DNA from: a virus
Virus record (IMG/VR): IMGVR_UViG_3300020200_000090
Coordinates: 1-33,947 of that record
DNA: 33,947 nucleotides
Direction: 5' to 3' (one strand)
The position numbers were made by a program, and so were the translations under genes. This document shows, in pieces, positions 2 through 11,218 of this stretch (position 1 is its first letter; every line of letters begins with the position of its first letter). Under the pieces are notes generated by a model that did no database searches, had not been told where the DNA came from, and saw only the letters and a list, made by a program, of their open reading frames with translations.

Positions 2-1108
2 AACGGAACTCTTACCTTTGCAGTTCCGTATAATGCTCCTTCCACGCTCTATTATACTTGCGGCATTCATAGTGGAATGGGGAATACAATTAATATAACC
101 AGTGTGGGTCCTCAAGGCGACACAGGTCCTTCTGGGTTGGGCGGAGAAGAATTAGGAAGTCCGGTTGGGTTTTTTAAAGCAAGTGACACATCGATATCTA
201 TAGATGAATCTTCAAGAATTTTTACAATAACACCAAATTTTTCATCATATGTATTTTATTCAGCTGGTAAAAAGTTTGAAAAAACAACATCACTTTCAAT
301 ATCATGGGCAAATAATCACGGTATTCACTTTTTTTATTTTGATGATAATGGAATTCTTTCTACAACTGAAACGTTTGTAGAAGAATTAATAACAAAATAT
401 ACTTTTATATCAATATTATATTGGGATTCTACGGCTCAAAAAGCAATATATTTTGGAGATGAAAGACATGGGATAAATATGGGAACAAGTACTCATATGT
501 ATCTCCACACGACACGAGGTGCTCAGTTTGATAAAGGTTTAAAACTTGTAAACTTTGTAGTAGATGGAGATGGTTCGCTAAGTTCGCATGCTCAATTCTC
601 AGCTCAATCTGGAGTTATTTGGGATGAAGATATAAAAATAAATATTCCAGCACAATCTGTTTTTCCAGTTTTTTATAGATCTGGTTTGGTCTGGAAATCA
701 AAAAATCCAGATTCTTTTCCATTGATATATTCAGGTCAAGAAGGATATTCTGGATTAACAATTGCTTACAACATGCAGAGCGAGGGATCCTGGTCTCTTC
801 AGCCGGTTGATTCAAACAAATTTGCACTGGTTCATGTATTTGCAACAAACAACATACAGTATCCATTTGTTGCAATTTTAGGGATAAGTCAATACGCAAA
901 CAAAACCGCTGCAAGACAAGGTATTAAAATAGAAACTCAACAATTGGGTGGATTGCCTTTTTCTGAATTTGCGCCTGTTGGATCTATTATATTTGAAACT
1001 AGAAATGGTTTTACTAATATACCAAAGGCAGCTATAGTCTCAACAGATCTTGGCATGAATTATCAAGATGAAAGAGGCGAGTCTTTTAGACCAGGTACTT
1101 TAGATTAA
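2..1108 (+). CDS. Virion/tail fibre-like protein, 3' part, with cupredoxin-like motif (5' partial)
   Basis: The reading frame is open from base 2, so the gene starts outside the window; the ATG at 77 is internal. The first 25 codons read as a beta-strand-rich segment ending in YYTCGIHSGMGN. Its C-x2-H-x2-M spacing resembles the copper-ligand loop of cupredoxins, and similar segments are known to me from marine phage structural proteins. Next comes a short collagen-like run (GPQGDTGPSG), then about 300 residues rich in Ser, Phe, Tyr and Asn, typical of a tail fibre or other receptor-facing appendage. I recognise no enzymatic motif. The C-terminus reads GESFRPGTLD, and the first seven residues recur in a paralogous family further right (see findings). 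The gene converges on a minus-strand gene across a shared terminator hairpin. Structural role: fairly likely; exact role: inference. Confidence 0.75.
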   Translation, partial: NGTLTFAVPYNAPSTLYYTCGIHSGMGNTINITSVGPQGDTGPSGLGGEELGSPVGFFKASDTSISIDESSRIFTITPNFSSYVFYSAGKKFEKTTSLSISWANNHGIHFFYFDDNGILSTTETFVEELITKYTFISILYWDSTAQKAIYFGDERHGINMGTSTHMYLHTTRGAQFDKGLKLVNFVVDGDGSLSSHAQFSAQSGVIWDEDIKINIPAQSVFPVFYRSGLVWKSKNPDSFPLIYSGQEGYSGLTIAYNMQSEGSWSLQPVDSNKFALVHVFATNNIQYPFVAILGISQYANKTAARQGIKIETQQLGGLPFSEFAPVGSIIFETRNGFTNIPKAAIVSTDLGMNYQDERGESFRPGTLD

Positions 1109-1136
1109 AAGACCCATCCATAGGTCTTGTTTTATT
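1107..1136. terminator. Bidirectional intrinsic terminator between convergent genes
   Basis: AAGACC (1109-1114) and GGTCTT (1123-1128) form a 6-bp stem with an 8-base loop. GTTTTATT follows on the plus strand, and the minus strand has a TTTTAA run on its far side. It lies exactly between the 3' ends of two convergent genes. Confidence 0.7.
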
Positions 1137-1653
1137 AACCAAGAAGAGCTTTAAGTTCTTCTGGCAAAAGTGTTACATTAACTTGAGTTTTAGGTTTCTT
1201 CTTTTGTCCTAATTCTTGTTGACGTGTTTCAATTGCCTCGTCTACAGATGCAATTGATTGAGAATCAGCGTTGCGCTCAACAAGGGCCTTACGAAGTAAT
1301 TTTAGTTCTTTTAGTTGAGCATCACTTGCATTTTGTCGCGAACCTGGACTCTTAGCTTGATACGCAGCGCCGGCGTTTAATGCTTTGTCTTTATTGTGCC
1401 AATTACTAACCAGTCCGCTTACATATTTACGAAGCTCTGACTTGTCAGACAGCTTTTTGCGATTTGATTCTGTATCTGAAAAAACAACTTGACCTTTTTG
1501 AAACATAGAAGTTACAACTTCTAAAATCTGAGCTCGATATTCTTTAGTCATAACAGAATGAATATCTGTTTGATTTGCGACAAACTCAATTCCAGCTTCT
1601 TGCAAAACTTGAATTGTTGCATTAAAAACGGCCTCACGTTGAGAAATAGTCAT
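1135..1653 (-). CDS. Three-paralogue family protein, divergent AT-rich copy
   Basis: A 172-residue protein, starting at an ATG preceded by AAGGAG at good spacing. It belongs to the same family as the genes at 7848-8339 and 9094-9588. The shared core is LRKYVSGLVSNWHNKDK, then a Tyr and an (S/N)PGSRQ turn, D-x-QLKELKLL-x-KAL-x-ERNA and a helical tail ending in PEELKALL. Here the start is MTISQREAVF, whereas the others start M-x-MSQS-x-SVV. The N-terminal third is divergent and lacks the GESF(R/K)PG segment of the other two. The core looks like a helical DNA- or protein-binding fold, but I do not recognise an activity. The copy is AT-rich like its surroundings, unlike its GC-richer paralogues, so the duplication is old or the copies came from different sources. 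A 10-bp hairpin and a CCGATTC element lie in its leader. Confidence 0.85.
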   Translation of the reverse strand: MTISQREAVFNATIQVLQEAGIEFVANQTDIHSVMTKEYRAQILEVVTSMFQKGQVVFSDTESNRKKLSDKSELRKYVSGLVSNWHNKDKALNAGAAYQAKSPGSRQNASDAQLKELKLLRKALVERNADSQSIASVDEAIETRQQELGQKKKPKTQVNVTLLPEELKALLG

Positions 1654-1707: not shown

Positions 1708-2112
1708 TCAATTAGAATCGGATATTGTTAGTGAATTGGCATTTGTTGTAAAGTCTGAAAAAGACATTGTACTTCTACCTAGCCAAGCTAAACATTCGAG
1801 CGTTTTTTCATATATTACATTTTTAGGGTTTTTATTTTTAAGCAAACCTGGACTTACGGCAATTCCAATTTTTTCCACATTGGGTTCTGCTGTGTAGATT
1901 GCAGTCCAACAAATCCAACCATAATGATTCTCGTTTGGATCTAATAACTTAGCAACATAGGGTTTTGGCATCTGAGTTGCACAATTTGTTTTTTCGCAAA
2001 GCAATGCAAATTCCTTAAACCCGTCATTCAACTCATCTTGTAATCTGTCTTCTTCGGTTTCGTGTCCGCAGCTAGATATTAAAAACAAAGCAAACAATAA
2101 ACTTTTTTTCAT
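1708..2112 (-). CDS. Phage-encoded lipoprotein, function unknown
   Basis: A 134-residue protein with a lipoprotein signal: MKK, a hydrophobic stretch (SLLFALFLIS) and the lipobox ISSC with the acylated Cys at position 15. The mature part begins with an acidic stretch and carries four further Cys residues (in the CEKTNC segment, at WICW and at LECLAW), which suggests disulphide bonds in the periplasm. The start follows GAGGGTG, 9 bases after the preceding gene's stop codon. Small lipoproteins of phages are often spanin subunits, superinfection-exclusion factors or conversion factors. There is no clear spanin partner, so I leave the function open. The last codons overlap the CCGATTC promoter-like element of the next gene. 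Confidence 0.75.
   Translation of the reverse strand: MKKSLLFALFLISSCGHETEEDRLQDELNDGFKEFALLCEKTNCATQMPKPYVAKLLDPNENHYGWICWTAIYTAEPNVEKIGIAVSPGLLKNKNPKNVIYEKTLECLAWLGRSTMSFSDFTTNANSLTISDSN
1712..1723 (-). promoter_or_regulatory. CCGAT-type promoter element (copy a)
   Basis: Minus-strand ATCCGATTCTAA, ahead of the gene at 1135-1653 and inside the last codons of the preceding lipoprotein gene. It is one of about 13 copies of the repeated element described in findings. Confidence 0.5.
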
Positions 2113-2121
2113 ACAACACCC

Positions 2122-2286
2122 TCAATGAAGAATCTCCGGAATCGACTCTGTCATACTTTCATTTGCAATGATTACATAATCAATGTATTCATCTATCATT
2201 GTTACAAGCATCTCATCTGGAGTTGTTACTATTTTTGTTTTATCTTTTACATTGTTTAAAAGAGCAATGAGTTGTTCAACAGTCAT
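2122..2286 (-). CDS. Small hypothetical protein (54 aa)
   Basis: A 54-codon frame beginning MTVEQLIALLNNVKD and ending TESIPEILH. The start codon follows AGGGGA at about 7 bases, and a CCGATTCTATTAAAAT element lies about 25 bases upstream. The stop is 9 bases before the downstream lipoprotein gene. The sequence is acidic, helical and probably cytoplasmic, with no membrane segment. I do not recognise it. The start signals and its fit in a tightly packed operon support it as a real gene. Confidence 0.65.
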   Translation of the reverse strand: MTVEQLIALLNNVKDKTKIVTTPDEMLVTMIDEYIDYVIIANESMTESIPEILH

Positions 2287-2302
2287 GTATTTCCCCTGAT
2301 TT

Positions 2303-2316
2303 TAATAGAATCGGAA
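2303..2316 (-). promoter_or_regulatory. CCGAT-type promoter element (copy b)
   Basis: Minus-strand TTCCGATTCTATTA followed by AAAT, about 17-30 bases before the ATG at 2286 and just after the stop codon of the preceding lipoprotein gene. One of the clearest intergenic copies. Confidence 0.6.
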
Positions 2317-2317
2317 A

Positions 2318-2584
2318 TCAATGATAAACTCTGCCACAGGTAGCTTTTTTAACAATTAGTGGATTATGACCTGCTTTTTCTAATTCTTTAGCCAGTTTTT
2401 TAACAGCCTCGCATTTGTTTTTTCCGTGCGCAGCAAAATCATCATTATCTATTTTTAACAGACAAAGATGAGGATCCACTACAGTAACGCACAGCTCTGG
2501 TAGTTTTGGTTCTTGTTTTGGTTCTTGTTTTGGAATTGTACTGCATGAACTCAATACAAATGATAACAATAGTATTTTTTTCAT
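2318..2584 (-). CDS. Small lipoprotein, possible outer-membrane spanin-like protein
   Basis: An 88-residue lipoprotein precursor: MKKILLLSFVLSSC with lipobox LSSC and acylation site at Cys14. A KQEPKQEPKLPE linker follows, rich in Pro and Lys, then a small domain with Cys residues at VTVVD-flanking, LCLL, NKCEA and ATCGR positions. Lipid anchor plus Pro-rich linker is the layout of an o-spanin, but o-spanins usually pair with an inner-membrane coiled-coil partner next to endolysin and holin, which is not evident here. Its ATG overlaps the stop of the upstream 28-residue membrane peptide (ATGA), so the two are translationally coupled. The CCGATTC element of the next gene lies right after its stop codon. 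Confidence 0.75.
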   Translation of the reverse strand: MKKILLLSFVLSSCSTIPKQEPKQEPKLPELCVTVVDPHLCLLKIDNDDFAAHGKNKCEAVKKLAKELEKAGHNPLIVKKATCGRVYH

Positions 2585-2667
2585 TTGACACCTTCAAAAT
2601 ATCCACTTATAACTAATATTAAAAAACTAATCATAATAAATACAACTATATAATCAATGTAAATCAT
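2581..2667 (-). CDS. 28-residue membrane peptide coupled to the lipoprotein gene
   Basis: A short frame starting MIYIDYIVVFIMISFL and ending GYFEGVK. It is almost entirely one transmembrane helix with a short polar tail. AGGGGA lies about 10 bases before its ATG. Its stop codon overlaps the ATG of the lipoprotein gene in an ATGA arrangement, which is why I accept such a small frame. Together they may form a membrane/envelope pair. The peptide is too short for a classical i-spanin. Confidence 0.5.
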   Translation of the reverse strand: MIYIDYIVVFIMISFLILVISGYFEGVK

Positions 2668-2967
2668 ATCTACGAAAATCCCCTGTTGATAATATTTTTA
2701 AACCATGGTTGGTGTTTTATGTTTTTGATATTTTTATTAAAAACATAAACAATATGACCATAAAATGAAATTTTATGACTGGGGCAATACCTAAATATAA
2801 CGTAATATACCTTTTTTAGTTATTTTATATTAATTATACAAAAGTTCATCGAGTACGGGGGTGTGTTAATCATCCTTCAGTATTTGATTCAAGTCGTAAA
2901 CATCCACATCCATTCCGTGCTTGATGATTTTTGTGTCATAATCGAAATGCTGCTTTTTATAAAAATA
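2668..2967. other. Intergenic stretch with a coding-like continuation of the upstream small gene
   Basis: There is no complete gene in these 300 bases. Bases 2866-2967 on the minus strand continue the frame of the 44-residue gene past its TAA: YFYKKQHFDYDTKIIKHG is followed by MDVDVYDLNQILKDD and a second TAA. This reads like authentic protein. The rest (2668-2865) is very AT-rich and I see no gene in it. Confidence 0.5.
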
Positions 2968-3102
2968 TTAGAATTCATCTTTAAGTTCTTTACTAATATC
3001 ATTTAATGTTTTTTTAGGTTTTATAAAAAAGTTAATTATTAAATCAGTAATAGTTAAAAACAACACGACTGAAATTGTAATTATTAGTAAATTTAATAAC
3101 AT
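2968..3102 (-). CDS. 44-residue single-pass membrane protein, possibly truncated
   Basis: The protein starts MLLNLLIITISVVLFLTI and continues as one hydrophobic helix to about residue 27. A Lys/Pro-rich turn (KPKK) and a charged helix ending KELKDEF follow. Its ATG overlaps the end of the 74-residue gene (10-base overlap), consistent with translational coupling. N-terminal membrane anchor plus charged cytoplasmic or periplasmic tail could be a small holin, an i-spanin-like protein or an inhibitor. The frame continues for 33 protein-like codons after the TAA, so this may be a shortened form of a 78-residue protein. Confidence 0.55.
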   Translation of the reverse strand: MLLNLLIITISVVLFLTITDLIINFFIKPKKTLNDISKELKDEF

Positions 3103-3317
3103 ATTTCACTACTTTCAATAAACTTATTAAAAATCTCGGGATATCTGCCTACATAACCATTGTCTTCAAAGAAATAATAAAGAGCCTCACCAGGACGAAG
3201 ACCGTCTTCAAAACTATCACGCCAGTGATAATCTTCAAAACTATTGGCATCAAGTCCCACTGCCTCAACGCAGAGACGATTAACTTCTTTCATCCAGATT
3301 TTGAAATTCATCTTCAT
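3093..3317 (-). CDS. Small acidic hypothetical protein (74 aa)
   Basis: Begins MKMNFKIWMKEVNRLC; the start is supported by GGGAGAAG 5 bases upstream. The body is rich in Asp, Glu, Phe, Tyr and Trp (SFEDYHWRDSFEDG) and ends FIESSEICY. This composition is typical of small soluble phage accessory proteins. No motif is recognised. It overlaps the downstream membrane peptide gene. Confidence 0.75.
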   Translation of the reverse strand: MKMNFKIWMKEVNRLCVEAVGLDANSFEDYHWRDSFEDGLRPGEALYYFFEDNGYVGRYPEIFNKFIESSEICY

Positions 3318-4000: not shown

Positions 4001-4246
4001 TTAGTCTTCAATAAAACCAATATATACATCTATTTGATATCCGTATGCCCAGCATTGATTATCTAGAGTAAAGATAGCATCTTTTTTATCAACAATAGAA
4101 ATAGTATCAACAGGTTGACGTTGACCATGTCTCAAACCTAACCCTATGTTTTTTTCAATAGATACTATTTTTGCCTTTTCTGGCGGCAAGCTTCCCCAAC
4201 AACCGCTCCACAGTACGTCATCTCCAATGCTTAAAAAAGCTGTCAT
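4001..4246 (-). CDS. Small conserved-type phage protein (81 aa)
   Basis: Starts MTAFLSIGDDVLWSGCWG after AAGAGG at 6 bases. The order of short strands (GDDVLWSG, PPEKAKIVSIE, VDTISIVDKKDAIFTLDNQCWAYG) resembles small beta-barrel phage proteins that begin with a 'GD-VLWSG-WG' turn and end with 'D-HWAYG-QI'. I recognise that pattern but know no function for it. The gene fits the minus-strand operon, with the promoter element of the next gene right behind its stop codon. Confidence 0.8.
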   Translation of the reverse strand: MTAFLSIGDDVLWSGCWGSLPPEKAKIVSIEKNIGLGLRHGQRQPVDTISIVDKKDAIFTLDNQCWAYGYQIDVYIGFIED

Positions 4247-4295
4247 AACAACCTCTTATTTGTCATACGACAATCTTTACAAATCGACATCAATA

Positions 4296-4337
4296 ATGTC
4301 ACAATCCGAATCTGTAGTTTTTCTAAAGGTCGCATAG
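4296..4337 (+). pseudogene. Remnant of the 5' end of the three-paralogue family, inverted
   Basis: The plus strand reads MSQSESVVFLKVA and stops. The first nine residues equal residues 3-11 of the protein encoded at 9094-9588, which reads MVMSQSESVVF. The DNA matches over the first 17 bases exactly (ATGTCACAATCCGAATC) and at most of the next ten. The orientation is opposite to the intact paralogues. There is no ribosome site and nothing homologous afterwards, so this is a fragment left by recombination rather than a gene. A chance match is possible, because part of it also resembles the CCGAATC promoter element. Confidence 0.4.
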
Positions 4338-4368
4338 TCCATTTAAGAATCCCTTATTGCTGATTTGT

Positions 4369-4578
4369 TTACTCAGTGCGAGTTCTTTTGGTCAAGGCAT
4401 ATTTCTTTTTCATCCTACATATTCCTGTCCAAGACATATCGTTCTGAATACATAACTTATAAAGAACATAGTGTAAGTCGTTTAAAGCTTTAAATTTTTT
4501 CTCTATCTTTAAATCGCATACTCGTATGTCTCTCATGCAATTCTCGCTCTGTGTAGCAGTGTCAGCGGTCATGACCAC
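4369..4578 (-). CDS. Small basic hypothetical protein (up to 69 aa)
   Basis: The frame runs from a GTG at 4578 or an ATG at 4572. An internal ATG at 4536 begins MRDIRVCDLKIEKKFKALND, with a GAGCGAG about 8 bases upstream. The body is helical and the C-terminus very basic (RMKKKYALTKRTRTE). No start has a strong ribosome site, so the 5' end is uncertain. The open frame and composition look protein-like, but I would not rely on it. Confidence 0.4.
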   Translation of the reverse strand: MVMTADTATQSENCMRDIRVCDLKIEKKFKALNDLHYVLYKLCIQNDMSWTGICRMKKKYALTKRTRTE

Positions 4579-4656
4579 TTAATATTAGTGATTTACTTCT
4601 TAAGTAAAGAATATTTTATTTTAAGAAACACTAATAAGATACTAAACCTTGTTATG

Positions 4657-4824
4657 CTAATGAAAGAAGTCTCTTTTAGAGATGGGTTCCAAGCTAATAG
4701 ATTGTCTATCTGCCGTTGTTGGTGGTGTGTTTTTTGCAAATCTACCCCAGGCATTTTTTCCTGCAAGTCCGCGATTCGAAGATTTCTTCTTCTTCTCAAA
4801 TCGTCGTGCATCATTGCTATACAA
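4657..4824 (-). pseudogene. Protein-like frame without a good start (up to 55 aa)
   Basis: Directly downstream of the 165-residue gene and shifted +1 relative to it, this frame reads YSNDARRFEKKKKSSNRG, then a Gly/Ala/Thr/Pro-rich part (GRFAKNTPPTTADRQS) and ends KRDFFH. It looks more like real protein than the other frames here but lacks an ATG and a ribosome site; a TTG at 4824 is the only nearby option. A competing frame on the same strand (4593-4814, starting MMHDDLRRRRN) has an ATG but odd composition. Either a frameshifted gene end or a small gene with an unusual start. Confidence 0.3.
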
Positions 4825-5314
4825 TCCTGTAAGTATCAAATTGACTAAAATATGGATAAACAAGCTCATATCCAAGTTGATTAACTATATCTTCGACAAC
4901 TGAGACTAGCATATAATAACCATGGCATTGATAGCCCGTTTTTTGATCTATAAACGCTATCTCAATGGTATGTGGAAATACTTCATTCATTGCACTTGTT
5001 CCACTTGACCAAGGGCCTTTAATGTTGCAGGTCGAACCGTCCGTCATTGTTAGATTAAACGTGTGGCCATAGAAACCACTTGAATCATTAAGTCGTTTGT
5101 AATAAAACTGAACAAAGCCAATTTCATTCTTTCCCCAGTATAGATCACCAACATGCTTGCCGTTGTCGCGATCATGGTCTTCTATCTTTTGAAATAAGAT
5201 ATCACTCGGCTCTCTTCCTCTAATATAAAGACGAAGTTTGTTAGTTGAGACCGTATCGATCCAGAATTCATAGCCATTAGAATATAATCTGTTTGGTTTT
5301 GCGACTTGTTCCAT
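4817..5314 (-). CDS. Hypothetical protein (165 aa)
   Basis: Starts MEQVAKPNRLYSNGYEFWID after GAGGTGA. Rich in aromatic and polar residues with alternating strand-like segments (KLRLYIRGREPSD, IGFVQFYYKRLN, GHTFNLTMTDGS), it is probably a compact beta-rich soluble protein. I see no signal peptide, membrane helix or known catalytic motif. Its start overlaps the end of the 73-residue gene by 38 bases, so the two are probably translated in a coupled way. Confidence 0.8.
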   Translation of the reverse strand: MEQVAKPNRLYSNGYEFWIDTVSTNKLRLYIRGREPSDILFQKIEDHDRDNGKHVGDLYWGKNEIGFVQFYYKRLNDSSGFYGHTFNLTMTDGSTCNIKGPWSSGTSAMNEVFPHTIEIAFIDQKTGYQCHGYYMLVSVVEDIVNQLGYELVYPYFSQFDTYRIV

Positions 5315-5498
5315 GGCTCACCTCGTGAATGGATTTTAGGATTTCATCGAAATAATGATTCTTATTTGTTACTTTTGCTATTCGCAAAATACCTAATAGC
5401 ATTTTAAATCTCTGTTTACTTCTTAAACCTTCAACGGTTACAACTAGTTTGTCAAATTCATCGTACTTATTTTCAGAAACAGATTTGTTAGATTTCAT
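5277..5498 (-). CDS. Small basic helical protein (73 aa)
   Basis: Starts MKSNKSVSENKYDEFDKLVV. Its ATG immediately follows the TAA of the 145-residue gene (TAAATG), a coupling arrangement. It is rich in Lys and helical (SKQRFKMLLGILRIAKV) and ends TSRKTKQIIF. It overlaps the next gene by 38 bases. Function unknown; a small nucleic-acid-binding protein would fit, but that is only inference. Confidence 0.7.
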   Translation of the reverse strand: MKSNKSVSENKYDEFDKLVVTVEGLRSKQRFKMLLGILRIAKVTNKNHYFDEILKSIHEVSHGTSRKTKQIIF

Positions 5499-5936
5499 TT
5501 ATAAAACTTTTTCTTCAATAGTTTCAAACTCAATTAATTGATTTAGATAATTGAGAATATCTTGCTCATCCACACCTGCTATTATTGCGAACTTTATACA
5601 ATTAGAAATATCAGACACATGTCCGCATTTCATTTCAGTAATCAAAAAAAACCTATCTGTTCCCATGTGTGCATCTTGAGCACAACTTGAAATTGCCCCA
5701 GAGGCAAAATAAAACGCATGATTGAGAATATTTGCATCTGCAATTTTACGTGCTAAATTACTTGCTATCTCACATTCTTTTTTTGAAGAAAGACCATTGA
5801 TATAATTATCTATAACTTTAATAACATTAGTTAAATCATCATCAGGGCATATTTTACTTGCCAAAATGGCAGAAAATAAATTAAGTCTATTGATTTGTTT
5901 ATTAGTAAGCTTGCGGCCACAATAGTAAATATTCAT
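5499..5936 (-). CDS. Hypothetical helical protein (145 aa)
   Basis: Starts MNIYYCGRKLTNKQINRLNL after a TTAGGGAGA site. It is mainly alpha-helical with scattered Cys residues (SKICPDDD, KKECEIAS, SSCAQDAHMG, MKCGHVSD, SNCIKF) and ends LIEFETIEEKVL. The Cys/His pattern is irregular and I do not claim metal binding. It is the first gene of a three-gene coupled string (5936 down to 4817). A TTCGAATCTATAGT element lies about 20-36 bases before its ATG, partly inside the last codons of the previous gene. Confidence 0.8.
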   Translation of the reverse strand: MNIYYCGRKLTNKQINRLNLFSAILASKICPDDDLTNVIKVIDNYINGLSSKKECEIASNLARKIADANILNHAFYFASGAISSCAQDAHMGTDRFFLITEMKCGHVSDISNCIKFAIIAGVDEQDILNYLNQLIEFETIEEKVL

Positions 5937-5956
5937 AATAAATCTCCCTAAGATTT

Positions 5957-5972
5957 ACTATAGATTCGAATT
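5957..5972 (-). promoter_or_regulatory. CCGAT-type promoter element, divergent (copy d)
   Basis: Minus-strand AATTCGAATCTATAGT, about 20-36 bases before the ATG at 5936. It keeps the CGA-TCTATA part of the consensus and overlaps the stop codon of the upstream gene. Confidence 0.45.
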
Positions 5973-6362
5973 TAATTGCTTTTCAACAGCGCAACGAAAC
6001 AAGTAATTCATAGCTAACATTTTTATTTGCTCTCGTTCTACTACTCTCGCCCCGTCGAGCGACCAGCTAAATGTAGAATAGGGTTCTGGATAGAATCGGA
6101 TCTGACAATAGCCCGCACTTCTATCTGAGATAAGTTTACCATTGGTTTGTTTAAGAAGACGTTTTAACTTAAATGAATGCTTATTCAAATCATGTCGAAG
6201 TTTGTTGTGCGCTTCGAATTCACGTTTTAATTTGTTAATTATTTCAATAGGTTTTCTATTATCAACTGCATACATAAGTTTATAACGCAATGAGCTACGT
6301 TTGCGAGCCCATTCGTTTCTAGCATTAACTATGAAGCAGATCTCTTCATATACAGAGTTCAT
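5958..6362 (-). CDS. Hypothetical basic coiled-coil protein (134 aa)
   Basis: Starts MNSVYEEICFIVNARNEWAR after an AGAGG site. The first 85 residues are a strongly basic helix (KRSSLRYKLMYAVDNRKP, INKLKREFEAHNKLRHDL) likely to form a coiled coil. A short strand-rich segment (GYCQIRFYPEPYSTFSWS) and a final helix follow. It looks like a small nucleic-acid- or virion-associated protein but matches nothing I recognise. The TATCCGAATCTATTT element lies about 23-37 bases upstream. Confidence 0.75.
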   Translation of the reverse strand: MNSVYEEICFIVNARNEWARKRSSLRYKLMYAVDNRKPIEIINKLKREFEAHNKLRHDLNKHSFKLKRLLKQTNGKLISDRSAGYCQIRFYPEPYSTFSWSLDGARVVEREQIKMLAMNYLFRCAVEKQLNSNL

Positions 6363-6384
6363 AAAACCTCTGACCTACACGTTG

Positions 6385-6399
6385 AAATAGATTCGGATA
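6385..6399 (-). promoter_or_regulatory. CCGAT-type promoter element (copy e)
   Basis: Minus-strand TATCCGAATCTATTT, about 23-37 bases before the ATG at 6362 and just after the stop of the small frame at 6405. Confidence 0.5.
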
Positions 6400-6404
6400 A
6401 TACT

Positions 6405-6545
6405 TTATTTTATAAAATCCTCAACATCTACAAAGGATAGGTTTACTTTACTGTTTTTTATAACTACTAATCTCATCAACACCCAAGTTAGGTGTATTCT
6501 AGTTGTAGTTCTATTGTTCCACTCTATTGGTCTAAAGTAACTCAT
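6405..6545 (-). CDS. Possible small protein (46 aa)
   Basis: The frame begins MSYFRPIEWNNRTTTRIHLT and ends SFVDVEDFIK. Its composition is protein-like and it fills an otherwise empty gap in the minus-strand operon. No good ribosome site precedes the ATG, although a CTTCGAATACATGATT stretch resembling the promoter element lies immediately upstream. Low confidence. Confidence 0.35.
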   Translation of the reverse strand: MSYFRPIEWNNRTTTRIHLTWVLMRLVVIKNSKVNLSFVDVEDFIK

Positions 6546-6583
6546 TTAATCATGTATTCGAAGTTGGGATTGATCAACGTGGT

Positions 6584-6805
6584 TCATAAATCACATACCT
6601 CTTCTAAAGTCATCTCTTCTGTCGTGACTAATTCTAGTTCGTCTATTGCATAGAAGTGAGAATAGCTTTTTGCATGGGCATCTGCTGCCTGGGCGTCAGT
6701 TGCATTTATCAGTCTTTGCATATCTTTTTCCGCCTGAGCGCGAACGGTATAGACCTTATCCACGGCGATTTCGACGTCATTAAATACTATGATATAGACT
6801 TTCAT
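6584..6805 (-). CDS. Small phage protein (73 aa)
   Basis: I place the start at the ATG at 6805 (MKVYIIVFNDVEIAVDKVYT), which follows AAGGAAG, rather than at an upstream TTG/GTG-type start. Strand-helix-strand layout: a first beta strand (KVYIIVFNDVEI), a helix starting RAQAEKDMQRLINATDAQAA, then a second strand (SHFYAIDELELV) and an acidic tail. This is a common shape for small phage accessory proteins that begin 'M-VY-V'. No function known. Its DNA is GC-richer than the genes to its left. Confidence 0.7.
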   Translation of the reverse strand: MKVYIIVFNDVEIAVDKVYTVRAQAEKDMQRLINATDAQAADAHAKSYSHFYAIDELELVTTEEMTLEEVCDL

Positions 6806-6881
6806 CTGTCTTCCTTGAGACGACCTGAGTCCGCGCCGACACTGTTCACACAATGAAGAAAAAAACTATGAAGCATGTTGT

Positions 6882-7085
6882 TCATTCAGAGCTCCAAAAG
6901 AACTTGGAGATGCTCTGCAGCATCCCCATCTTCAAGGCTTCGGCTTTCTCTATCGCTACCAACAAAGCTCTGCTGGCTGCTTTGAGGGAGTCTATGTCCT
7001 TGTAATCAGAGGAACTTAGTAAGTTTTCAGCTTCCCATATCAAGGTTCTAATAGTTTCTATTTCGTCTGAATTGTTAGGTTTCAC
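6882..7085 (-). CDS. Small helical protein (67 aa, GTG start)
   Basis: The start is a GTG at 7085 preceded by AAAGGAGAT at good spacing. The protein reads MKPNNSDEIETIRTLIWEAE, a helical hairpin (DSLKAASRALLVAIEKAEAL) and a short aromatic tail (FFWSSE). Its promoter is not evident: no CCGAT element lies within 100 bases. Function unknown. Confidence 0.65.
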   Translation of the reverse strand: MKPNNSDEIETIRTLIWEAENLLSSSDYKDIDSLKAASRALLVAIEKAEALKMGMLQSISKFFWSSE

Positions 7086-7228
7086 ACCTTATCTCCTTTA
7101 AACTCACCACAAGCGCATCCTCAAAAAAAAACGCGTTTGCAACTCAAAATATGATTACGAATAGACGGTACTCTCCAAAAAACAGTTACACACCAAACCA
7201 AAGAACCACAATTGAAATCAACGGAGTA

Positions 7229-7474
7229 TTAAACGGGGTTGTCTTCTAGCAAGAACTCAATCAATCCATTGAGCTGTCTCTCATTAAGACGGCCAATGAT
7301 TGAAGTCCGATAGTCATCTGCATCATAAGAGCAACCGTAAGTGTATTCGATCACACCCAGTTCCAAAAGCATCTCTAAGCCCTTCTCGCCAGGGAATCTA
7401 GCACTAAACATTCTATCAACCATACGAGCAACAGGAGTAAGCTCACGATCACCAGAGACCATAAGTACTGTCAT
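7229..7474 (-). CDS. Hypothetical protein (81 aa)
   Basis: I choose the ATG at 7474 (MTVLMVSGDRELTPVARMVD) because GGAGGTG sits 4 bases upstream; the TTG 12 bases earlier lies inside that site. The protein is a compact mixed alpha/beta chain with motifs RFPGEKGLEMLLELGVIE and a final helix (NERQLNGLIEFLLED). It follows the 61-residue gene after 12 bases and is surely co-transcribed with it. Function unknown. Confidence 0.7.
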   Translation of the reverse strand: MTVLMVSGDRELTPVARMVDRMFSARFPGEKGLEMLLELGVIEYTYGCSYDADDYRTSIIGRLNERQLNGLIEFLLEDNPV

Positions 7475-7486
7475 ACCCACCTCCAA

Positions 7487-7672
7487 TCATCTACGTAGTT
7501 TAATAATTGGATGACCTTCGTCTGTTACGTCAGATGTAGCGTCTGACAACTCAAGATCTACACAGCCAGCACCAAAGTATTCATCTTGCTCTAGATCAAG
7601 AATGGTTACATGATTGTTTAACTGATTTTCACTTAAAAGACTAAGGGCTTCTAGCAGTTCTTTATAGGTCAT
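7487..7672 (-). CDS. Small hypothetical protein (61 aa)
   Basis: The ATG at 7672 (MTYKELLEALSLLSENQLNN) follows GGAGGTG and is preferred to the open frame extending up to 7795, which crosses the promoter-like element. The sequence HVTILDLEQDEYFGAG, CVDLELSDAT and PIIKLRR suggests a small beta sandwich. The N-terminal 'MTYKELLE-L--L--EQL' pattern is common in small phage proteins of unknown function. A CCATCCGATTCTCTA element lies 21-34 bases upstream. Confidence 0.75.
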   Translation of the reverse strand: MTYKELLEALSLLSENQLNNHVTILDLEQDEYFGAGCVDLELSDATSDVTDEGHPIIKLRR

Positions 7673-7692
7673 AGTGACACCTCCATCTATGG

Positions 7693-7706
7693 ATGTAGAG
7701 AATCGG
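7693..7706 (-). promoter_or_regulatory. CCGAT-type promoter element (copy f)
   Basis: Minus-strand ATCCGATTCTCTAC, 21-34 bases before the ATG at 7672. It supports the shorter start of that gene. Confidence 0.55.
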
Positions 7707-7820
7707 ATGGAACGCTTCGCTGTCCCAGATTGCCCCAGTGAAAATGGGATAAAATGAGTTAAAAGTGGGTGGGTGGTGGCCGCGCACTCTCTCACTCAAC
7801 TTTCCACTTAAATTTTATTA

Positions 7821-7838
7821 GTGCACTTCCATGTGCAC
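7821..7838 (-). terminator. Hairpin downstream of the paralogue gene at 7848
   Basis: GTGCAC-TTCCAT-GTGCAC forms a 6-bp stem with a 6-base loop, 10 bases beyond the stop codon of the minus-strand gene. The following minus-strand bases are AT-rich (TAATAAAATTT) but lack a continuous T-run. Weak terminator at best. Confidence 0.4.
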
Positions 7839-7847
7839 CTATCTCAC

Positions 7848-8339
7848 TCAGAGCAAGTCTCTTAGGTGCTCTGGGATTTTACTAAGATCCACTTCGATTT
7901 TGCTTTGTGGCTTGATCTCGCTGAGACGCTGCGCAATTGCTTCATCGACCTTGGCAACTGCTTCAGGCTGGGCATTGCGCTCGATGAGAGCCTTGCGCAG
8001 TAGCTTTAGCTCTTTCAGCTGTGGATCACTTGAACCCTGGCGAACACCCGGGTTTTTGGGTGCATACTTTGTTCCACCATTGAGCTCGGTCGACTTGCGG
8101 AACCAGTTGTTCACCATACCTACTACGTAGGTACGGACCTTAGATGGTGAGTCGTACTTGATTCGAGCACCTGGACTAAAATCAGTCCCATGCTCGAGGA
8201 TCGACTGGGTCACTAGATCGACCACCTGCTTAGTCTGATCCTTGGTGATGTACTCCAAGACTGGAGTACCGGGTTTGAACGACTCACCGAGAACTTCTTG
8301 AGTAGCTGCAACAACTGACGCTGACTGTGACATAGTCAT
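7848..8339 (-). CDS. Three-paralogue family protein, GC-richer copy 1
   Basis: 163 residues, starting MTMSQSASVVAATQEVLGES after GGAGGTG. Layout: a short Ser-rich start, GESFKPGTPVLEYI, a helical region (KQVVDLVTQSILEHG), then the conserved core VRTYVVGMVNNWFRKS, LNGGTKYAPKNPG and SSDPQLKELKLLRKALIERN, and the C-terminal PEHLRDLL. It is very similar to the protein at 9094-9588 along its whole length and more distantly to that at 1135-1653. Strong ribosome site and own promoter element suggest high expression. I cannot assign a function. Conserved Trp, Tyr and basic residues in the core could mark a nucleic-acid or capsid-binding surface (inference). Confidence 0.85.
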   Translation of the reverse strand: MTMSQSASVVAATQEVLGESFKPGTPVLEYITKDQTKQVVDLVTQSILEHGTDFSPGARIKYDSPSKVRTYVVGMVNNWFRKSTELNGGTKYAPKNPGVRQGSSDPQLKELKLLRKALIERNAQPEAVAKVDEAIAQRLSEIKPQSKIEVDLSKIPEHLRDLL

Positions 8340-8376
8340 AAAACACCTCCAATAGTTGAGCTCAGGCCCAACATAT

Positions 8377-8392
8377 ATATAAAGGATCGGGA
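8377..8392 (-). promoter_or_regulatory. CCGAT-type promoter element, variant (copy g)
   Basis: Minus-strand TCCCGATCCTTTATAT, about 38-53 bases before the ATG at 8339. A 6-bp hairpin (CTGGGA/TCCCAG, 8397-8411) lies just upstream of it. Confidence 0.45.
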
Positions 8393-8437
8393 GAGACTGG
8401 GACCGTCCCAGCGTTCGCAGTGCTTCGGGTGCCGCTA

Positions 8438-8833
8438 CTACCGTTGGCCCGCGAACAATATATTATAGAGTCGGTTGACGGCGTAGCGGTGTCGGAGCTG
8501 TTGGCTCCGACTGGGGGAGCTAGCGAGGACTAAGTCCTCGCTTTCCCCTGGTGTTCTCACTATGCTCTCGGCTCGCCAGCGGACTGGAGAGCCGTCGTGT
8601 GGCTTGTGCCAGTTGGCCGTGTATTCCACGGTCTCGAACTCGTCTTCGAGTTCGACCAAGTTCGAGAGCATTTGGAGATGCTCTGCGAGTTCTGGATCGT
8701 GGTTGCCAACTAGTTCGTCGCTATCTTGGTACCTGAAGGCGCCGCCATCGATGGCGTAGTACTCGGTGTACTCGCTGTCTGTGATGTCAGTGATGAATGC
8801 ATTTACCGCGCCTTCGAGTCTTACATTGTACAT
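8438..8833 (-). CDS. Acidic hypothetical protein (131 aa), GC-rich
   Basis: Starts MYNVRLEGAVNAFITDITDS after GAGGTGA. Strand-rich N-terminal half (EYTEYYAIDGGAFRYQDS, DEFETVEYTANWHKPHDG), an acidic helix, and a C-terminal tail SRSQQLRHRYAVNRLYNILF. The tail is encoded by DNA that forms two strong hairpins (stems at 8491-8498/8504-8511 and 8522-8530/8534-8542). The last approximately 80 coding bases are repeated imperfectly upstream of the gene at 8891-8971. Composition is markedly GC-richer than the tail genes. Function unknown. Confidence 0.75.
   Translation of the reverse strand: MYNVRLEGAVNAFITDITDSEYTEYYAIDGGAFRYQDSDELVGNHDPELAEHLQMLSNLVELEDEFETVEYTANWHKPHDGSPVRWRAESIVRTPGESEDLVLASSPSRSQQLRHRYAVNRLYNILFAGQR
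8458..8540. repeat. Imperfect direct repeat, copy 1 (3' end of gene)
   Basis: About 80 bases matching 8891-8971. The best part is TATTATAGAGTCG-TTGACGGCGTAGC-GTGTCGGAGC with only single differences over about 42 bases, then a diverged middle and a shared AAGTCCT end. This copy is coding for the C-terminus of the 131-residue protein and contains a promoter-like CCGACTCTATAATA. Confidence 0.75.
8461..8474 (-). promoter_or_regulatory. CCGAT-type promoter element inside coding sequence (copy h)
   Basis: Minus-strand CCGACTCTATAATA within the last codons of the 131-residue gene, about 122 bases ahead of the paralogue gene start at 8339. It may be a promoter for that gene, or only the coding version of the repeated segment. 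Confidence 0.35.
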
Positions 8834-8843
8834 AAGTCACCTC

Positions 8844-8893
8844 ATTGTTAATATATAAGCTATATTTAATTATATAGCTTATTATTAACAATA
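8844..8893 (-). promoter_or_regulatory. Long AT-rich hairpin in the leader of the 131-residue gene
   Basis: ATTGTTAATATATAAGCTATAT and its near-perfect inverse at about 8870-8893 form a stem of roughly 21 bp with one bulge and a short AT loop. It lies between the CCGACTCTATAATAT element and the ribosome site. An RNA of this leader would fold strongly right before GAGGTGA, so it may protect the mRNA or limit translation. Confidence 0.6.
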
Positions 8894-8971
8894 TATTATA
8901 GAGTCGATTGACGGCGTAGCAGTGTCGGAGCATTCAGCGCCGACTGATTCTCTCTAGAACGAAGTCCTTTA
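8891..8971. repeat. Imperfect direct repeat, copy 2
   Basis: Matches 8458-8540. It covers the promoter-like element of the 131-residue gene and the 3' end of the 32-residue membrane peptide gene. After that peptide's TGA the frame continues MLRHCYAVNRLYNIL, equivalent to LRHRYAVNRLYNIL in the other copy, so this is a leftover of a duplicated gene end. Confidence 0.7.
8894..8907 (-). promoter_or_regulatory. CCGAT-type promoter element (copy i)
   Basis: Minus-strand TCGACTCTATAATA, upstream of the leader hairpin and the ATG at 8833. Confidence 0.5.
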
Positions 8972-9032
8972 TTACATCGGAGATAGTTAGTAAGATATAT
9001 CCGAACACGAAGATAATAAGTAAACTAGTCAT
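8934..9032 (-). CDS. 32-residue membrane peptide
   Basis: Starts MTSLLIIFVFGYILLTIS after a perfect AGGAGG site 8 bases upstream. One transmembrane helix is followed by a charged tail (DVIKDFVLERISRR). The ribosome site is the best of any small frame here, so I take it as a real gene. Its last codons lie in the repeated segment shared with the 131-residue gene. Role unknown. Phage peptides of this type include holin regulators, membrane-disturbing toxins and superinfection factors. Confidence 0.65.
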   Translation of the reverse strand: MTSLLIIFVFGYILLTISDVIKDFVLERISRR

Positions 9033-9058
9033 GATCGTATCCTCCTAGTTTAGGGAAA

Positions 9059-9082
9059 GGTTGGGCTCAGAAGAGCCCAACC
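9059..9082 (-). terminator. Hairpin terminator after the paralogue gene at 9094
   Basis: GGTTGGGCTC and GAGCCCAACC form a perfect 10-bp stem with an AGAA/TTCT tetraloop, 11 bases past the stop codon. On the minus strand it is followed by TTTCCC, a short T-run. It separates this gene from the membrane peptide gene that follows. Confidence 0.6.
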
Positions 9083-9093
9083 GGAACGGAACC

Positions 9094-9588
9094 TCAGACG
9101 AGGTCCCGGAGGTGATCTGGGATCAGATCCAGATTCACTTCGACCTTCTTGGCTGCGGGTTGGATCTCGGAGATTCGCTGGTCGATCGCTTCCTGCACCT
9201 TGGCCAGAGCATCTGGTGCTGCGTTCCGCTCGGTCAAGGCCTTCATCAGGAGCTTGAGCTCCTTGAGCTGGGGGTCGGTCGAACCTTGGCGAGATCCTGG
9301 GTTCTTGATCTCGTACTTGGTTCCACCGTTCAACTCCTTGCCTTTGCGGAACCAGTTGTTGACCATACCAACCACGTAGCTTCTCAGCTTCTTGGGATCG
9401 GCGAACTTCTCACGAGCCTGAGCGGAGAGATCGGTCTCGAACTCTTGGATCGACTGAGTCACAAGGTCAACAACCGAGGCAGTCTCGTCCTTCGAGATGT
9501 ACTCGAGGATCGGAGCACCTGGACGGAAGGATTCACCGAGAACTTGCTTGGTATAGAACACTACTGATTCGGATTGTGACATAACCAT
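9094..9588 (-). CDS. Three-paralogue family protein, GC-richer copy 2
   Basis: 164 residues, starting MVMSQSESVVFYTKQVLGES after AGGAGGTG, an exceptionally strong ribosome site. Layout is as in the 7848 copy: GESFRPGAPILEYI, a helical segment, the core LRSYVVGMVNNWFRKG with LNGGTKYEIKNPGSRQGS, then DPQLKELKLLMKALTERN and the end PDHLRDLV. Conservation against copy 1 is high at protein level, with many silent base differences, so both are under selection. It sits at the end of a leader crowded with CCGAT-type elements and has its own terminator, which suggests abundant expression as a single unit. Function unknown. Confidence 0.85.
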   Translation of the reverse strand: MVMSQSESVVFYTKQVLGESFRPGAPILEYISKDETASVVDLVTQSIQEFETDLSAQAREKFADPKKLRSYVVGMVNNWFRKGKELNGGTKYEIKNPGSRQGSTDPQLKELKLLMKALTERNAAPDALAKVQEAIDQRISEIQPAAKKVEVNLDLIPDHLRDLV

Positions 9589-9612
9589 ATAACACCTCCT
9601 GGTTGAACAAAC

Positions 9613-9628
9613 AGATAGAGTATCGGAT
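9613..9628 (-). promoter_or_regulatory. CCGAT-type promoter element (copy j)
   Basis: Minus-strand ATCCGATACTCTATCT, 25-40 bases before the ATG at 9588. It is the element nearest to the paralogue gene. Confidence 0.55.
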
Positions 9629-9671
9629 CAAACGCCGTACACTATCGATAACAGAATCGTAAGACAAAGAT

Positions 9672-9686
9672 AGAATAGTATCGGAA
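9672..9686 (-). promoter_or_regulatory. CCGAT-type promoter element (copy k)
   Basis: Minus-strand TTCCGATACTATTCT. A weaker relative, ACGATTCTGTTAT, lies just downstream at about 9648-9660. Confidence 0.5.
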
Positions 9687-9732
9687 TCTCCACATTCACC
9701 TCCAGTTTCGGGTGGGTGCTTTCCATAATACT

Positions 9733-9746
9733 TTATAGAATCGGAT
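9733..9746 (-). promoter_or_regulatory. CCGAT-type promoter element (copy l)
   Basis: Minus-strand ATCCGATTCTATAA followed by AG; the closest copy to the consensus. Confidence 0.6.
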
Positions 9747-9778
9747 ACCCGGTAGCCTTTCCTTTTTAGGGGACCTCT

Positions 9779-9794
9779 TATTATAGTATCGGTA
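9779..9794 (-). promoter_or_regulatory. CCGAT-type promoter element (copy m)
   Basis: Minus-strand TACCGATACTATAATA followed by AGAGG. The rightmost copy of the cluster. Confidence 0.55.
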
Positions 9795-10009
9795 CCGCGG
9801 CGCAAATAATCCCTAGCTGGGGCATTGCAAATACAAGGGCCCGGGCCCTCAATACAGAAACAGGCCCGGTAGCTTGTAGAAAAAAGTCAGGTACCAGTAC
9901 TTGATTTGCACACAATAGTATAGTGTGATTTATAGAGCGTGCATTTTAAAAACACATTGTATATTCATACAATTAATCAGTTTTGCTTATTCTATACTTC
10001 CTGTAACCT

Positions 10010-10069
10010 ACAACTGCCACCACATAGGGTGCATATAGTCGCCACAACTGCCACCATATAGGGTGCACA
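10010..10069. repeat. Tandem direct repeat, 34-base period
   Basis: ACAACTGCCACCACATAGGG-TGCATA at 10010-10035 recurs as ACAACTGCCACCATATAGGG-TGCACA at 10044-10069. The 26-base units differ at two positions and are separated by 8 bases. Spaced near three helical turns, they could be protein-binding sites. Confidence 0.75.
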
Positions 10070-10183
10070 TTCTCCTATTCCCTTGTCAAAGATCCACTCC
10101 TATTATACCCGCCCAGGGCCTGCGCGGACGCCCACTACATCGTTGACATCATTGAAATAAGTGAGAAAGTTATAGTTAAATTA

Positions 10184-10248
10184 CGTCGTTTACTTCGCTG
10201 ATATAAAGCGCGATATCGCGCTAGGATCTTCAGCGAATAGACTCGACG
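10184..10248. repeat. Nested three-tier inverted repeat around a perfect palindrome
   Basis: Centre: AGCGCGATATCGCGCT (10207-10222), a perfect 16-base palindrome. Next tier: TTCGCTGA (10194-10201) with TCAGCGAA (10230-10237). Outer tier: CGTCG (10184-10188) with CGACG (10244-10248). The gaps are nearly symmetrical (5/7 and 5/6 bases). It could fold as a cruciform in DNA or as a long interrupted hairpin in RNA. It is unlike any terminator here, having no T-run. Confidence 0.75.
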
Positions 10249-10426
10249 AGGATAGGTGGTGCTTTAGTTGTAGGTTAGGCGCGGCATCATAGGTGCAGTG
10301 GATTACAGGCGCTGGCATAAGGCATGATTGATAAAAAATATGGGTTGATTTAAAATTAGTGAAAGTTAAGTGTGTGCACTTAAAAAAGCATAGTGTTTTC
10401 ATGGGGTTCTAAAAAAACTTAAAAAA

Positions 10427-10963
10427 TCAAGAAAGAAACAATCTTCGTTCAGCTTCTCTACGACGAGTTAAACCAGCCATAACTTGACCACGGGACTTGT
10501 TGTATTTTAAAAACTCTTCTGCGGCAAGAACAAAGTTACGTTGATTAACGAGCTTAAGAAGAGTCGATTGCTTTAGATTACCAGCACCGACGTTGTAGGT
10601 AAACGAAACTAGAGCGGCAAATTGATTGTCATTGACTTCTACTTTTAGAAGCTTGCTTACTTGATCGCAAAAGCTTTGAAGATGATGGACGAGTGCTTGC
10701 TCAGCTTGCTCCTGTGTCCATACTGTCTTTGGACCAATTGGTGAGTGTTTTCCGTCTACCAGCGGAGAGAATTGATCAAGACCAGTTGCACCGTAGCCAA
10801 TTGTCCAAGGATCACCTGGAAGAGATTTCCAACCTTCTTTTCTGGCGTTTTGTGTTTTTAACAACTCTTTACCTAGAGGAGAGGCAGGATCGGCATATGC
10901 CTTTAACTTACAACCTTCGAAAGATTTTATTAGGTCAACACCATCTTTGTTTATCTTTTTCAT
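10427..10963 (-). CDS. Lysozyme-only product from an internal start (alternative)
   Basis: The ATG at codon 86 (MKKINKDGVDLIKSFEG) is preceded by GGAGAAG at about 6 bases, a better ribosome site than that of the long form. The 178-residue product is close to T4 lysozyme in size (164) and starts right at the family's normal N-terminus, with catalytic residues at 16, 25 and 54. Either the Cys-rich domain and the lysozyme were fused and the old start still works, or both forms are made. Confidence 0.6.
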   Translation of the reverse strand: MKKINKDGVDLIKSFEGCKLKAYADPASPLGKELLKTQNARKEGWKSLPGDPWTIGYGATGLDQFSPLVDGKHSPIGPKTVWTQEQAEQALVHHLQSFCDQVSKLLKVEVNDNQFAALVSFTYNVGAGNLKQSTLLKLVNQRNFVLAAEEFLKYNKSRGQVMAGLTRRREAERRLFLS

Positions 10964-11218
10964 ATTTTCTTCTCCAAATTTTTGTTCTATAGCAAAATCT
11001 AAAATTTTTTGCTTAGCTGCTTGTTTGTAGATTTCTGCAACTTCATATTCTGATCTTGCACGAAGAGCTCCGGTGGCTTCCCAACAACTCATCCAACCAG
11101 TTCCATCTTGCCTTTCTGTTAATTTAGCAAGAGGACAAATTTTACATGGATTATTTCTGAGATCTTCACAATCACCAGTCGAAGCTATATGCTCTAATAT
11201 CTTAGAGACGCGATTCAT
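10427..11218 (-). CDS. T4-type (GH24) endolysin with N-terminal Cys-rich domain
   Basis: Full frame of 263 residues; the start has GGAGT at 8 bases. Residues 1-85 form a small domain with Cys17, Cys25, Cys28 and Cys45 (C-x7-C-x2-CPL...C) and a helical tail. Residues 86-263 are a GH24 lysozyme that cleaves peptidoglycan between N-acetylmuramic acid and N-acetylglucosamine. The catalytic triad is Glu101 (SFEG), Asp110 (AYAD) and Thr139 (DPWTIGYGATG). E-to-D spacing is nine, as in T4 lysozyme, with an insertion of about 23 residues before the Thr. The C-terminal part NQFAALVSFTYNVGAG and the end AGLTRRREAERRLF are family signatures. I see no signal peptide, so export would need a holin. Minus strand, divergent from the virion module. 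Confidence 0.9.
   Translation of the reverse strand: MNRVSKILEHIASTGDCEDLRNNPCKICPLAKLTERQDGTGWMSCWEATGALRARSEYEVAEIYKQAAKQKILDFAIEQKFGEENMKKINKDGVDLIKSFEGCKLKAYADPASPLGKELLKTQNARKEGWKSLPGDPWTIGYGATGLDQFSPLVDGKHSPIGPKTVWTQEQAEQALVHHLQSFCDQVSKLLKVEVNDNQFAALVSFTYNVGAGNLKQSTLLKLVNQRNFVLAAEEFLKYNKSRGQVMAGLTRRREAERRLFLS

Follow-up and report, generated by a model that had tools for sequence, protein, structure and literature searches.

What could two small lipoproteins and two tiny membrane proteins, encoded close together on the minus strand of a phage genome, do during infection? The four genes span positions 1708-3102 (1395 bp) of the window, which is the whole virus record of 33,947 bases that was analyzed here. 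The original prediction described two lipobox proteins together with membrane proteins of 28 and 44 residues within 1.4 kb, and all four open reading frames are indeed present. It also suggested a role in superinfection exclusion or lysis timing, of which exclusion is the likelier. The range assigned to them, 2118-3102, takes in three of the genes and leaves the lipoprotein at 1708-2112 outside. Taken as a set, the four are probably envelope-acting accessory genes. The reading that we favor, tentatively and with a probability of roughly 0.35, is that the two lipoproteins (here referred to as lipo1 and lipo2) modify the host envelope, most likely for superinfection exclusion of the T5 Llp/Cor type, without demonstrable homology to those proteins. 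Small phage lipoproteins are a recurrent means of blocking later infection, and the worked-out examples considered here come from coliphages. A conserved pair near a fibre-like gene in Mx1-like myoviruses would offer a concrete place to seek exclusion or envelope remodelling in a phage group that is little studied and rich in lipid-anchored or secreted enzymes.

The window comes from a large myovirus that has Myxococcus phage Mx1 as a distant relative. Its sheath protein aligns with Mx1 across 92% of its length with 32% identity, Mx1 being the sole phage record to cover at least 80%, and a second virion protein resembles those of SPO1-like phages at about 29% identity. Virion genes occupy the plus strand from 11.2 kb onward, and the minus strand carries small genes together with a GH24 endolysin (10427-11218). 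From the relationship to Mx1 and the type of endolysin we infer a diderm host; bacterial genomes searched with a window protein as host probe returned no match. The endolysin lies 7.3 kb from the four-gene set, consistent with the earlier statement that no endolysin is adjacent. It has an additional N-terminal, cysteine-bearing part of about 90 aa, and tblastn stretches matching this part alone were found in three related loci (L006, L012, and L024).

On the far side of lipo1, the set is followed by a member of a multicopy gene family and then by a convergent fibre-like gene (Table 1). A PHROG scan of the fibre-like gene gave no family, and its homologue in the sister contig L004 has collagen-like repeats. 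Proteins of the multicopy family are about 165 aa long and are encoded at two further places in the window (7848-8339 and 9094-9588) and in up to four copies within 20 kb in related phages; the family had no match in the phage collection.

Table 1. Positions of the lipoprotein genes, their neighbors and associated sequence features in the window and in the sister contig L004.
Record	Feature	Positions	Strand	Remarks
Window	Fibre-like gene, C-terminal part	2..1108	+	Convergent; putative label
Window	172-aa multicopy-family member	1135..1653	-	Directly follows lipo1 in both sister phages; 74% identity between them
Window	lipo1, 134-aa lipoprotein	1708..2112	-	Lipobox ISSC, +2 residue G
Window	TCCGATTCT motif	1714..1722	-	Inside lipo1 3' end, before 172-aa gene
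Window	54-aa gene	2122..2286	-	Between lipo1 and lipo2; not found in L004
Window	TCCGATTCT motif	2307..2315	-	Between lipo2 and 54-aa gene
Window	lipo2, 88-aa lipoprotein	2318..2584	-	Lipobox LSSC, +2 residue S; Pro/Lys/Glu linker
Window	28-aa single-TM peptide	2581..2667	-	Its TGA overlaps lipo2 ATG (ATGA)
Window	300-nt gap	2668..2967	-	Between 44-aa gene and 28-aa/lipo2 pair; A+T-rich stem-loop around 2716-2749
Window	44-aa single-TM protein	2968..3102	-	TM by prediction
Window	74-aa gene	3093..3317	-	Overlaps 44-aa gene; phrog_519 E 1.9e-9; DUF5419 below cut-off
L004	45-aa TM peptide	6397-6534		Counterpart of 28-aa peptide; basic C-terminal tail
L004	lipo2 homologue	6531-6791		Overlaps 45-aa peptide gene
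L004	57-aa homologue of 44-aa protein	7465-7638
L004	lipo1 homologue	7888-8286
L004	Multicopy gene	8370-8888

Judged by sequence pattern, both predicted lipoproteins are beyond chance. A combined scan for lipobox and ribosome-binding site recovered two candidates in the window, lipo1 and lipo2, against none in any of five first-order Markov shuffles. The scan is strict, and it missed a protein of L004 (12856-13164) that is a lipoprotein when judged by eye. Strong transmembrane (TM) segments were predicted in the 28-aa peptide and the 44-aa protein, with 19-residue hydropathy values of 2.75 and 2.67, respectively. The ATGA overlap between the 28-aa peptide and lipo2 is by itself little informative, because any ATG start followed by AA (for example, ATG-AAA) contains TGA. 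When the upstream 300 nt were shuffled, a TM peptide spanning 28 codons or more appeared in the overlapping frame in 0.4% of 5000 cases, and a peptide of the L004 type (at least 45 codons with a TM segment) in none of 5000.

A search with the multicopy family (1135-1653 and its paralogues) yielded 30 loci, which were screened by tblastn. Each lipoprotein, as well as the 44-aa protein, was present in one of the 30, namely L004, with identities of 35% for lipo1, 42% for lipo2 and 41% for the 44-aa protein; the 28-aa peptide and its L004 counterpart are 30% identical over a gapped alignment. Four cysteines in each mature lipoprotein are kept between the two phages (C39, C44, C68, and C107 in lipo1; C32, C41, C58, and C83 in lipo2). 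The window and one sister phage thus have in common two predicted lipobox proteins and two predicted single-TM peptides. In L004, the genes run in the order 45-aa peptide, lipo2, a gene homologous to window 5958-6362, a 76-aa gene, the 57-aa gene, a 94-aa gene, lipo1, the multicopy gene and a 162-aa gene, after which comes the convergent fibre-like gene. This order indicates that the peptide-lipo2 pair and the lipo1-multicopy neighborhood are retained, whereas the position of the other TM gene changes.

Beyond L004, database searches were negative. Single-sequence searches of viral contigs with lipo1 and lipo2 found nothing, and alignment searches of the same contigs recovered L004 again and no other. 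Among 30 related records, each lipoprotein was likewise found in a single one, the sister contig. For lipo2, no relative was seen in bacterial genomes, the phage collection gave no hit with the E limit set at 10, and no PDB sequence came below E 0.5. For lipo1, the phage collection gave only two records at E 4 (Tenacibaculum phage pT24), which we take as chance. PADLOC and NCBIfam contained nothing convincing.

The four genes had been described as one operon, which is doubtful, as the 300-nt gap with its stem-loop, the 54-aa gene and the motif TCCGATTCT divide the set. No convincing gene was found within the gap. The window contains six exact copies of TCCGATTCT, all on the minus strand (1714, 2307, 3982, 6092, 7699, and 9737). 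Allowing up to one mismatch on both strands, there are 16 occurrences vs. 8.0 expected (sd 2.7), a number reached by none of 100 shuffles. Four exact copies occur in L004 (5205, 8304, 11245, and 11981), all on the small-gene strand; the copy at 8304 lies in the matching place ahead of the multicopy gene, and a one-mismatch copy follows the lipo2 homologue. The motif is located mostly 20-70 nt ahead of small genes, and in L008-L011 and L013 it also stands before genes of the 172-aa family. We consider it a candidate phage promoter or regulatory element. The copy at 6092 lies inside a gene and is unexplained by the promoter reading, and no copy stands directly before the 28-aa gene.

In the superinfection-exclusion reading, the cluster would be an early-type, fast-diverging envelope module. 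Both lipo1 and lipo2 would be exported, receive a lipid anchor and be retained at the outer membrane, where they would form small disulphide-stabilized periplasmic domains, and the 28-aa peptide would be translationally coupled to lipo2 and seated in the inner membrane. The host envelope would be altered during infection, most probably such that the receptor or entry route of later phages is blocked. Exclusion fits better than lysis, given the fibre-like neighbor, the cysteines kept in both phages and the location on the strand that carries the small early-type genes. The lipoproteins are encoded beside the convergent fibre-like gene in both the window and L004, among small genes with a common oriented motif and on the strand opposite to the virion genes. 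In addition, lipo2 has no fitting i-spanin partner, and the coupled TM peptide is found in both sister phages. Against exclusion, no homology to a known exclusion protein was seen, the endolysin is on the same strand as the lipoproteins, and only one sister phage carries the set. Early expression is suggested solely by strand and motif.

Llp and Cor are among the known proteins that come closest to this arrangement. As described in an excerpt of PMC9586334, Llp of phage T5 is a periplasmic lipoprotein that jams FhuA, and its gene adjoins that of the T5 receptor-binding protein. Llp and Cor are only about 20% identical, and similar small lipoproteins near the tail-tip genes of other coliphages are suspected of this role (same excerpt, PMC9586334). 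The proteins studied here are likewise small, cysteine-bearing phage lipoproteins by prediction, and their genes lie near a putative fibre gene. However, two lipoproteins with TM peptides are present rather than one lipoprotein, at least one gene separates them from the fibre-like gene, which is on the opposite strand, and there is no detectable sequence similarity. No homology to Llp, Cor or other exclusion proteins was seen with PHROG, Pfam, the phage collection, PADLOC or NCBIfam. The likeness to Llp is purely anatomical, as it concerns the predicted gene products and their setting.

Alternatively, these may be unrelated accessory envelope genes with separate roles, which are neighbors only because the region gathers small accessory genes. 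The interruption of the set by gap, stem-loop and motif is consistent with this view, and in L004 the homologue of the 44-aa gene has been relocated to a site between the two lipoprotein genes, with further genes interposed. Related phages also keep varied exported proteins, including ClpP-like, SLT transglycosylase, trypsin-like and PA14 proteins. Both sister phages, however, have kept all four genes within 2 kb and ahead of the same neighbor, and we regard an unrelated assortment as possible but somewhat doubtful.

A different proposal concerns lipo1 itself. AlphaFold2 was run on two-row alignments of each lipoprotein. For lipo1, one of five models was fair, with an alpha-beta-beta-beta-alpha topology and a mean pLDDT of 65; the other four reached 44-53. 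The top VIA-align rows for this model were zincins (3e11, Z 7.1, rmsd 3.8, 101 residues aligned), although Z values of about 7 are common without a clear match, and further rows included selecase, leukotriene A4 hydrolase and a SprT-like protease, followed by an Hsp90 group. The zincin lead is of interest because related phages carry lipoproteins with an intact HELGHC motif. On this proposal, lipo1 would be a degenerate zincin, kin to these lipoprotein metallopeptidases (PF18894 PhageMetallopep-like), which has lost its zinc site and now only binds. It shares with them a lipobox, a similar model topology and the layout of cysteines, a collinear alignment placing C68 on VGxC and C107 on the last cysteine of HELGHC, and L004 encodes a HELGHC lipoprotein with the motif intact in addition to its lipo1 homologue. 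In contrast to the HELGHC lipoproteins, lipo1 and its homologue have no HExxH.

Profile comparisons do not confirm this proposal. With signal peptides removed, hhalign gave P 0.3 with five sequences and P 0.053 with 38, the latter equalled or bettered by 5 of 150 shuffles, and hmmsearch ranked 11 of 1000 shuffles above lipo1. Foldseek returned no significant match for the model, and Hsp90 chains followed closely behind the zincins in VIA-align. We consider a degenerate zincin unlikely. Direct homology between lipo1 and the HELGHC proteins stays part of this rival reading and no more: an hhalign P of 1.1e-4 obtained with signal peptides was lost once these were cut, and lipo2, run as a control and aligning at its signal-peptide end alone, gave P 0.0037. 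More elaborate, and less probable still, is a version in which lipo1 would be a lipid-anchored pseudo-protease, its zinc site lost in this phage lineage, acting as periplasmic binder in an envelope-remodelling module with lipo2 and the tiny membrane anchors. If true, it could, for example, capture the targets of the HELGHC lipoproteases that the phage group itself encodes, or shield them from these enzymes.

Lysis offers another explanation, in which lipo2 would be an o-spanin, its i-spanin either the 28-aa peptide or a protein encoded elsewhere in the genome. As in overlapped Rz/Rz1 spanins, a membrane-protein gene precedes and overlaps a small lipoprotein gene. The predicted outer-membrane lipoprotein signal of lipo2 (lipobox and non-Asp +2 residue) is what an o-spanin requires, and the best family match of lipo2 is a PHROG of Rz-like spanins (E 0.0023), with a second one at E 0.063. 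Distance from the endolysin has a parallel in T4, whose spanin genes are also distant from holin and endolysin according to an excerpt of PMC6139136. However, the PHROG match is confined to residues 4-47, a stretch made up of signal peptide and linker, and is not seen with the L004 homologue. Spanins require an inner-membrane partner with a periplasmic domain (same excerpt, PMC6139136); unlike in Rz/Rz1, the partner here has 28 residues, or 45 including a basic tail in L004, which leaves no room for a periplasmic helical domain, and lipo2 itself has a predicted folded domain. This compact beta-beta-alpha-alpha domain, at about residues 40-80, was modelled by AlphaFold2 with pLDDT >90, four of the five models being poor; a fold search found no significant match, with weak dsRBD-like and other rows (best Z 4.2).

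A related record of 176 kb, G003, bears on the same question. It has a separate spanin-like pair, a 112-aa TM protein overlapping a 49-aa lipoprotein by 4 nt (56,318 and 56,653), and contains no homologue of lipo1 or lipo2. This pair had no match in the other loci at E up to 1. The feature table of Mx1 includes an endolysin and no annotated holin or spanin, and the strict lipobox scan of Mx1 gave no lipoprotein. As found, the peptide and lipo2 do not look like a spanin pair on their sequences, in agreement with the original view that the set differs from one, given the peptide too short for an i-spanin and the separate pair in G003. The same evidence makes lipo2 as an o-spanin with its i-spanin elsewhere, in the unsequenced remainder of the genome, and with it a role of the set in lysis, improbable. 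The two lipoproteins are in this way set apart from spanins, with which they could otherwise be confused through weak family matches.

Least probable is a Spackle-like lipo2 that inhibits the tail lysozyme of incoming phages. Like T4 Spackle, lipo2 is small, predicted to be exported and cysteine-bearing, and T4_Spackle ranked first in Pfam for lipo2 as well as for its L004 homologue (E 0.11 and 0.22). However, the scores of 13.5 and 12.5 are far under the cut-off of 27, and the aligned region begins at the signal peptide. Spackle folds as an all-helical bundle (excerpt of PMC7677548) vs. the beta-beta-alpha-alpha model of lipo2. Of 12 records searched for GH24, 7 gave a single match and none gave a second.

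Related phages encode further exported proteins. HELGHC proteins with a VGxC ahead of the motif, many of them carrying a lipobox, were observed in L057-L097, L004 (14347-14964), L026 (6953-7516), and L016 (12615-13121), and one of them matches PF18894 PhageMetallopep. A search with three HELGHC proteins retrieved 41 loci in viral contigs; among the 43 HELGHC open reading frames from these 41 loci and two further, 25 have a lipobox by pattern. We regard them as one family, probably of lipid-anchored zinc peptidases. Additional exported or lipid-anchored proteins of the relatives (L004:4139-4768, L038:6664-7482, L038:9141-9797, L030:6325-7140, L050:17708-18379, and L012:19400-20104) include two ClpP-like proteins, an SLT transglycosylase, a trypsin-like protein, a subtilase with a signal-like N-terminus and a PA14-domain protein. 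In L026, the fibre-like gene is followed by closely packed genes for exported and membrane proteins (4067-9000). They encode two lipoproteins, several single-TM and two multi-TM proteins and a candidate barrel protein, and a PHROG scan gave none of them a family of known function. In the window itself, G+C content rises to about 0.47 at 7501-10500, around two of the multicopy genes, from 0.31-0.40 elsewhere.
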